From an uncultured bacterium (lineage in GTDB: Bacteria; Patescibacteriota; Minisyncoccia; Phycocordibacterales; CAIJYI01), in contig CAIJYI010000004.1 of assembly GCA_903824855.1 (NCBI GenBank), positions 1 through 41,151 of the forward strand: a DNA stretch of 41,151 nt. Direction: 5' to 3'. Every line of letters starts with the position of its first letter. Position 1 is the stretch's first letter. Position numbers and translations under genes: made by a program. The notes under the pieces are model-generated. The model searched no databases, had not been told where the DNA came from, and was given only the letters and a program-made list of their open reading frames with translations. This document shows, piece after piece, positions 14,586 through 20,245 of this stretch.

Positions 14586-14658
14586 GCATCCTTAGCTCAG
14601 TTGGTAGAGCAGCGCATTTACACTGCGAAGGTCGGGGGTTCAAATCCCTCAGGATGCA
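14586..14658 (+). tRNA. tRNA-Val (anticodon TAC)
   Basis: 73 bases, no encoded CCA. Acceptor GCATCCT / AGGATGC, D-arm GCTC/GAGC, anticodon loop TTTACAC with anticodon TAC, T-arm GGGGG TTCAAAT CCCTC. It is followed by a terminator and then by partial inverted and direct copies of its own 3' end. Confidence 0.92.
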
Positions 14659-14666
14659 CAAAACGG

Positions 14667-14688
14667 ACCGCCATCAGGCGGTTTTTGC
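14667..14688 (+). terminator. Terminator of tRNA-Val
   Basis: ACCGCC-ATCA-GGCGGT followed by TTTTT. Confidence 0.8.
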
Positions 14689-14693
14689 GTATA

Positions 14694-14725
14694 CTCCGCA
14701 AAATGAACTACTTCATTTTGCGGAG
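14694..14725. repeat. Perfect 14-bp hairpin
   Basis: CTCCGCAAAATGAA and its exact inverse around the loop CTAC. It runs directly into the inverted T-arm of element B. Confidence 0.85.
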
Positions 14726-14829
14726 GGATTTGAAAGTCGGAGCCATGCACGCACCGGGCAGGCGAGACGGGGTCGCGGAAAATTTTTGCGACCAAAAATT
14801 TATCCGTGACCAAATCGCTCAGGATGCAC
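14723..14829. repeat. tRNA-tail element B (behind tRNA-Val)
   Basis: Starts with GAGGGATTTGAA (14723-14734), the exact inverse of the tRNA-Val T-arm (14639-14650). It ends with a 19-base near-copy (one mismatch) of the tRNA 3' end, 14811-14829 against 14641-14659. The two ends can pair with each other. The interior has a GTCGC...GCGAC hairpin. A second terminator follows. No gene is visible in it. Confidence 0.65.
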
Positions 14830-14835
14830 CACAAA

Positions 14836-14860
14836 AAAACCGCATCTTGCGGTTTTTTTC
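14836..14860 (+). terminator. Second terminator behind tRNA-Val
   Basis: AAAACCGCA-TCT-TGCGGTTTT followed by TTT, immediately after the tRNA-tail copy. Confidence 0.8.
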
Positions 14861-19963: not shown

Positions 19964-20050
19964 GGAGGAGTGGCTGAGTGGTCGAAGGCGCTAGTCTTGA
20001 AAACTAGAGGGCTCGAAAGGGTCCCGTGAGTTCGAATCTCACCTCCTCCG
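19964..20050 (+). tRNA. tRNA-Ser (anticodon TGA)
   Basis: 87 bases with the long variable arm of class II tRNAs (GGGCTCGAAAGGGTCCC). Acceptor GGAGGAG / CTCCTCC, anticodon loop CTTGAAA with anticodon TGA, T-arm GTGAG TTCGAAT CTCAC. No encoded CCA. The T-arm's 3' half and acceptor strand are repeated 118 bases downstream. Confidence 0.95.
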
Positions 20051-20100
20051 CTTTGTTAATATTAGAGAATATAAAAATACCACAATCTGTGGTTATTTTT
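20035..20100. repeat. 66-bp direct repeat, copy 1 (tRNA-Ser tail plus terminator)
   Basis: Identical to 20153-20218 base for base. It covers the last 16 bases of tRNA-Ser and the hairpin terminator AAAAATACCACA...TGTGGTTATTTTT. Confidence 0.97.
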
Positions 20101-20107
20101 ATTTATA

Positions 20108-20163
20108 GAGGTGAGATTCGAAGTTTATGCTCGGTAGCGAAGCGGACGGGTAAATCTCACCTC
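20108..20163. repeat. tRNA-tail element C (behind tRNA-Ser)
   Basis: GAGGTGAGATTCGAA (20108-20122) is the exact inverse of 20031-20045 in the tRNA. Its first 11 bases can also pair with AATCTCACCTC at 20153-20163, closing a hairpin over a 34-base loop containing GTAGCGAAGCGGACGGG. Same layout as the element behind tRNA-Val. Confidence 0.75.
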
Positions 20164-20218
20164 CTCCGCTTTGTTAATATTAGAGAATATAAAAATACCA
20201 CAATCTGTGGTTATTTTT
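20153..20218. repeat. 66-bp direct repeat, copy 2
   Basis: Second perfect copy of the tRNA-Ser tail and terminator, offset 118 bases. It is followed by unrelated sequence and a protein-gene promoter at 20246. Confidence 0.97.
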
Positions 20219-20245
20219 GTGTACGTCCAAGCAAGAGTGTTTTGT

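Follow-up and report, generated by a model that had tools for sequence, protein, structure and literature searches.

Hairpin elements behind bacterial tRNA genes have inverted and direct arms that match the adjacent tRNA

Introduction

T-loop-class integrases duplicate the 3′ end of a tRNA gene with the crossover in the T-loop, and the islands and prophages integrated in this way leave the tRNA whole. The elements described here, found behind tRNA genes of Patescibacteria, also show a duplication of the tRNA 3′ end starting from the T-loop and an intact tRNA. Unlike such islands, however, they lack an integrase, they include an inverted copy of the tRNA end, and one core is found at many different tRNAs. 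Integron attC sites share with them a long imperfect hairpin, a variable terminal part and an extra-helical feature on one side, but neither an IntI-type integrase nor cassette arrays were found here, and the arm sequence is set by the tRNA. REP/BIME repeats with RAYT (TnpA_REP) are likewise short, intergenic, multi-copy, hairpin-forming, non-coding and patchy between species, whereas the present elements lie strictly behind tRNAs on one strand, have arms copied from the target and are not always accompanied by a RAYT. With MITEs they have in common a small non-autonomous format, inverted terminal arms and a target duplication (in this case the tRNA tail plus terminator), yet their terminal inverted sequences are those of the target tRNA rather than element-specific, and no parent transposon was found. 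Finally, quasipalindrome template-switch mutagenesis would perfect imperfect palindromes and could thus rewrite arms, although it is known as a mutation process rather than as a component of any family of mobile elements. Because tests of these known systems failed, no Rfam match was obtained, and a search of the open-access literature (subscription papers and preprints lay outside it) returned no description of such elements, we regard them as novel.

Two elements in one contig

The window, a stretch of 41,151 nucleotides, is contig C4 of a 1.1-Mb Patescibacteria genome (G000) and contains an element behind tRNA-Val and another behind tRNA-Ser (Table 1). For the first, the first-pass annotation had listed a terminator, a hairpin, an inverse copy of the T-arm, a copy of the tRNA 3′ end and a second terminator in that order behind the tRNA, and a check of the sequence located every one of these parts at the positions it gave. 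The consensus layout of the family is tRNA - X - terminator - X′a - H - X′t - core - X - (terminator), where X denotes the part of the tRNA between nt 56 and the 3′ end, X′a and X′t are the reverse complements of the acceptor part and the T-arm part, and H is a hairpin at a fixed point of X′, flanked by the complements of tRNA nt 64 and nt 65. Elements measure ∼100–300 nt and contain no gene. The outer left arm of the Val copy, corresponding to the acceptor part, is mostly decayed, the 3′ side of H overlaps the inner arm, and the H loop reads CTAC as opposed to CTGC in the family consensus. The RNA fold z-score of this copy is −7.4.

The matches to tRNA-Val were compared with 2000 mononucleotide shuffles of the 241 nt downstream. 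The longest inverse match in the shuffles averaged 5.7 with a maximum of 12, which equals the observed length, while direct matches did not exceed 9 as compared with the observed 12 exact nucleotides, or 19 with one mismatch. In random segments of the window, inverse and direct matches both reached at most 9. Taken singly, the Val inverse copy could be a chance match and makes a suggestive case; the family of copies behind many tRNAs certainly rules chance out.

Table 1. Features of the two elements in the window
Feature	Position	Strand	Evidence
tRNA-Val (TAC), host tRNA	14586..14659	+	ARAGORN; Rfam RF00005, 70.6 bits
X, 3′ part of tRNA-Val	14641-14659	+
First terminator-like hairpin T (GACCGCCATCAGGCGGTTTTT)	14660..14690	+	sequence; direct-repeat partner D2 at 14843-14857
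Decayed outer left arm X′a, reads ~GCGTATAC, expected GTGCATCC	14684..14693	+	sequence compared with intact X′a of other copies
Hairpin module H, 14-bp perfect stem (14694-14707/14712-14725), loop CTAC	14694..14725	+	sequence; family H statistics
Inner left arm X′t, exact 12-nt reverse complement of tRNA-Val 14639-14650	14723..14734	+
Core C, type A (AGTCGGAGCCATG..GGCGAGACGGGGTCGCGG..hairpin..ATCCGTGAC)	14735..14810	+	own-genome copies; covariation among 7 type-A paralogues
Right arm X, 19-nt direct copy of tRNA-Val 3′ end	14811..14829	+	95%, one mismatch to 14641-14659
Second terminator hairpin	14833..14859	+	stems 14833-14844/14848-14859
tRNA-Ser (TGA), host of second element	19964..20051	+	ARAGORN; Rfam
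Left X-T copy (tRNA 3′ end + terminator), tRNA-Ser	20035..20105	+	97% identity over 71 nt to 20153-20223
Inverted arm X′ of tRNA-Ser element, 15 nt exact	20108..20122	+
Core type D (GTTTATGCTCGGTAGCGAAGCGGACGGGTA), without H hairpin	20123..20152	+
Right X-T copy of tRNA-Ser element	20153..20223	+

One earlier proposal did not hold: the wording GATTtGAA, which had been taken as common to the Val and Ser cores, corresponds to the near-universal T-loop in reverse complement and is therefore part of the arm. Beyond it, the two cores are of different types, A at Val and D (without H) at Ser-TGA. The type D core also occurs at tRNA-Ser-GGA of a sister species (L316).

A family behind tRNA genes of at least two phyla

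The regions downstream of 45 distinct tRNA genes in G000 were read, out of 47 matches above the cut-off, and ∼19 of the ∼47 tRNA genes were found to have an element or a remnant. BLASTN identified seven further copies of the Val element in this genome, behind Ser-CGA, Gly, Met, Trp, Leu-CAA and Phe, plus one with tRNA-His arms ∼3.2 kb downstream of tRNA-His. Four core types were distinguished: A (GTCGGAGCCATGCCC...), B (GATGTTGAATATACCGCAACGAGCC...), C (at Val-GAC and Gln) and D (at Ser-TGA). Elements were found only behind tRNA genes and on the same strand as the tRNA; core matches in G000 with at most one mismatch were all behind tRNAs or, in the case of His, had the arms of the tRNA 3 kb upstream. 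Right copies have decayed in many elements, and truncated elements or decayed right arms are present at Lys, Leu-TAG, Trp and Leu-GAG of G000. The elements therefore appear to be dispensable.

Other Patescibacteria, and Elusimicrobiota as well, have similar elements behind most isotypes. A pattern scan, from which the host range is a minimum, yielded at least 36 loci behind tRNAs in named genomes, 33 of which, among the matches listed, have zero or one mismatch in the 11-nt X′t, an agreement eased by the pattern itself, which partly fixes eight of the eleven positions. Among the matches listed, the patescibacterial hosts include Nomura-, Yanofsky-, Zambryski-, Lloyd-, Moranii-, Falkow-, Giovannoni- and Kuenenbacteria, and at least seven elements belong to Elusimicrobiota. 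Within the order, in a comparison set of one genome per species with fragmented contigs, 59 of 247 genomes matched the A-type pattern when one mismatch was allowed, and one genome matched a reversed control pattern. Pattern matches in other phyla were discarded, being without an upstream tRNA and resembling chance coding matches. Carriage by phage was likewise dismissed: the single match in a viral contig is a chance one, in apparent coding sequence with no tRNA.

Arms follow the local tRNA, cores do not

Across 80 complete elements behind many isoacceptors, the ends match the tRNA upstream. Over the ten acceptor nucleotides, the right copy has on average 0.36 mismatches to its own tRNA versus 6.02 to permuted ones (minimum 5.54). 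The use of arm matches in detection biases some of the counts, and a second search was made without arm information. It found 61 CTGC-loop hairpins within 220 nt of 289 tRNAs and none in shuffles. When anchored on these hairpins, X′t showed 1.34 mismatches to its own tRNA versus 3.37 permuted, and X′a 2.41 versus 4.41, both beyond all 200 permutations. Arms that mismatch at other tRNAs, the contrary result named in the first-pass annotation, were looked for, and the arms elsewhere do match in this search as well.

The cores behave differently. In G000 the A-type cores at Gly and Met share 95% identity although their arms are unrelated, and mean core identity is 0.73 for the same genome and different tRNAs, 0.64 for different genomes and the same tRNA, and 0.61 where neither is shared. 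A core tree, though weakly resolved, places several tRNAs in each lineage group: Falkowbacteria Gln/Leu/Arg/Pro (99), G029 Pro/Leu/Phe (95) and G000 Gly plus Met (88). Both the near-identical cores with unrelated arms and the grouping of cores with lineage more than with tRNA bear out the earlier idea that the element adapts its ends. Since near-identical cores stand behind different tRNAs with unrelated arms, the arms must have been re-made and not inherited with the core. An identical H is common to His (core A) and Pro-GGG (core B); H and core modules are exchanged between elements.

A directly duplicated tRNA 3′ end with its crossover in the T-loop is also what remnants of ordinary tRNA-integrated islands (attL/attR) would leave, the direct repeats then being attachment-site duplications. 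Such an origin is nevertheless very improbable, for it leaves unexplained the inverted copy X′, the hairpin H and the same covarying core at many tRNAs of one genome, and the shared cores and the inverted arms already go most of the way to refuting it.

At positions where the tRNA and the right copy differ, X′ sides with the tRNA in 120 cases and with the right copy in 2, a count biased by detection; the hairpin-anchored set gives 48 versus 8, and the way elements were detected introduces some bias into the comparison as a whole. The agreement of X′ with the tRNA is what one would expect if X′ is copied, or corrected, from the tRNA across the terminator palindrome, and it is less easily reconciled with selection on an X′–X helix.

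Gain, loss and target duplication

Of the tRNAs with an element in at least one of three congeneric species, most are not occupied alike in all three. At tRNA-Phe, G002 has an empty site that reads X - terminator - flank, while G001 reads X - terminator - X′ H X′t - core - X - terminator followed by the same flank as in G002, and its two terminators are alike. The comparison of filled and empty sites shows that insertion duplicates the tRNA tail together with the terminator. Sister species also differ in the core type found at one tRNA. In ∼13 of 60 elements the direct duplication extends 20–40 nt beyond the tRNA into local non-tRNA sequence (local score 12.2 versus 6.6 permuted, with a maximum of 7.5), and therefore the duplicated material derives from the target. 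The inverted copy, too, continues into the trailer (5.27 versus 3.91 of 8 positions). At L161, L193 and L204 the right direct copy runs on through X′a into H and ends in or after the H loop; an end of the duplication in H may mark a break site there.

Folding and the possibility of a tRNA-linked RNA

The consensus of seven type-A paralogues has 47 pairs, 24 of them with double compensatory changes. For H, delimited by the arms alone, 54 of 61 cases have a stem of at least 7 bp; the stems comprise 48 different sequences, and the loop is CTGC in 40. Because stems are conserved in H and C despite sequence change, a folded single strand is maintained, in the form of either RNA or single-stranded DNA. 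The conservation of loops and internal motifs between phyla suggests that selection acts on a structure recognized by some protein or RNA function.

The strongest rival explanation, which we nonetheless judge unlikely, builds on this folding. It holds that the elements are a structured RNA family co-transcribed with tRNAs, that is, RNAs with a role in regulation or processing, each tuned to its tRNA. In the proposed fold, X′a-H-X′t-C-X would be tRNA-like, with an acceptor strand and a T-stem, H replacing the D and anticodon arms and the core replacing the T-loop, and the element is predicted to be cut out by RNase P and the 3′-end machinery. The position of H, the strong covariation, the conserved loops and the invariable location just downstream of a tRNA on the same strand are all as expected for such an RNA. 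On the other hand, a terminator stands before the element, elements are often missing or decayed in sister species, and X′ agrees with the tRNA where the right copy departs from it, which argues against selection on an internal helix. There is also no Rfam relative: with Rfam 15, tRNA was the sole match above threshold in the window, and the same was true of seven element loci searched permissively. Should they prove to be an RNA instead, the elements would constitute a new tRNA-linked RNA class.

Candidate enzymes

No dedicated enzyme for the element was found among reverse transcriptases, Xer-like recombinases and Y1_Tnp proteins. Models of reverse transcription, whether by self-primed extension of the pre-tRNA terminator or by tRNA-primed copying, were attractive because they would give X-T-X′; they were set aside since the element-rich genomes G000, G001, G002, G017 and G029 contain no RVT_1 domain.

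Mobilization as REP/BIME elements by resident Y1 (RAYT) transposases was considered in view of the four Y1_Tnp copies in G000 and a weak co-occurrence of Y1_Tnp with the A-type pattern (43/59 versus 107/188, p = 0.03, a value that ignores relatedness). We find it improbable: Y1_Tnp was not seen in 16 of the 59 genomes with the pattern, the palindromes beside RAYT genes are of a kind of their own, unlike H or the core (20 regions around Y1_Tnp matches, with the ORF flanks read), and REPs are dispersed and neither keep to tRNA tails nor match their arms to a target. In contigs C27, C41 and C44 of G000 (L346, L347, L348, L349) a second family of dispersed repeats was noted, consisting of CTTGGCGGAGACACCGCC..GGCGGAGTCACCGCCAAG palindromes similar to the palindrome that flanks the RAYT gene at C41:88.5 kb.

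An integron-like system has also been weighed, with the tRNA T-loop as the attachment site and X′-H-C-X as a folded single-strand, attC-like site for a tyrosine recombinase, most sites being empty and the tRNA-His locus holding cargo. It would account for the presence of a putative radical-SAM gene and a short peptide gene in the ∼3.2 kb that separate tRNA-His from its matching element, for the start of X in the T-loop, and for the resemblance of the variable core to the variable terminal structure of attC. However, only one displaced element was encountered among ∼40 tRNAs searched in ∼350 kb of genome, a single Xer-like recombinase is present in G000 and none was detected in G002, and there is no common recombinase box because the arms differ at every tRNA, so that there is little prospect of this system being the right one. 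Kilobase-spaced matches in G029 and G014 that looked like cassette arrays are separate tRNAs of a cluster. The His locus is the only element site with intervening genes. Between tRNA-His and the displaced element (L090:1602-5001; G000:C24 ∼21.6-25.0 kb) lie, judged by eye from translations, a radical-SAM/SPASM-like gene, a short Asp-rich peptide gene and two further ORFs. The Asp-rich peptide gene seems to resemble a RiPP precursor, and the region looks like a small cargo at a tRNA.

Template switching on palindromes as a possible origin

Known insertion elements bring their own ends. Here the core travels and the ends are the target's, which argues for a target-copying insertion or for a maintenance process that keeps palindromes perfect. 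The agreement of X′ with the tRNA and not with the right copy, the missing reverse transcriptase and the weak Y1/RAYT link together favor target-copied arms made by template switching. We thus give even odds to the elements being a family of small, non-autonomous, modular hairpin elements with arms copied from the target tRNA, produced or kept up by template switching at palindromes. Evenly balanced, too, is the view that they are a new class of mobile or self-propagating hairpin element that rewrites inverted and direct arms to match its tRNA, has spread among tRNA genes within genomes and is present in at least two phyla, Patescibacteria and Elusimicrobiota.

In the mechanism we envisage, the H and C modules would insert, or be replaced, at the tRNA T-loop, and copying of the target would follow or accompany this step. 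At two points, the terminator palindrome and the core hairpin, DNA synthesis may reverse direction by template switching, as in quasipalindrome correction. This would make X-T-X′ and X′-C-X perfect palindromes and so rewrite the arms to the resident tRNA. The near-universal T-loop (GTTCRAnnC) could be the shared seed by which a single core is able to use any tRNA, and since the direct copy X keeps the tRNA intact, insertion would be harmless. Simple template switching alone does not explain the fixed place of H in X′ or the arrival of H and C. The loops and internal motifs conserved between phyla, the many decayed right copies and the detection bias in comparing arm with right copy also weigh against this explanation.

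Target-copying insertion and palindrome maintenance would both leave tRNA genes intact in reduced genomes. The many tRNAs as parallel targets and the sister species with empty sites provide a natural test system for the origin of inverted duplications, and the same system bears on how the small genomes of Patescibacteria tolerate insertions.

Related sequence variants

A recurrent arm variant, GACGAGAA instead of the expected GACTCGAA, is present at L027, L168, L188, L205 and L243; it follows tRNAs with the T-loop TTCGAGTC, as if CTCG were inverted. Some tRNA-element cores (L320, L298) contain a module GACCTAATTTT..GGAGYRAAGCGACTA..AAAATGGAARTACTCTTGTGG that is also seen away from tRNAs, in L347 shortly downstream of position 875, in the loop of a palindrome ATTCTGAAC[..]GATTCAGAAT. 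Downstream of tRNA-Ile-TAT (G000:C37:89639-89884; L016, L353) there is a different duplication, which starts at the anticodon loop and has a GTAGCGAAGCGAAG hairpin; contig C37 ends inside this repeat.
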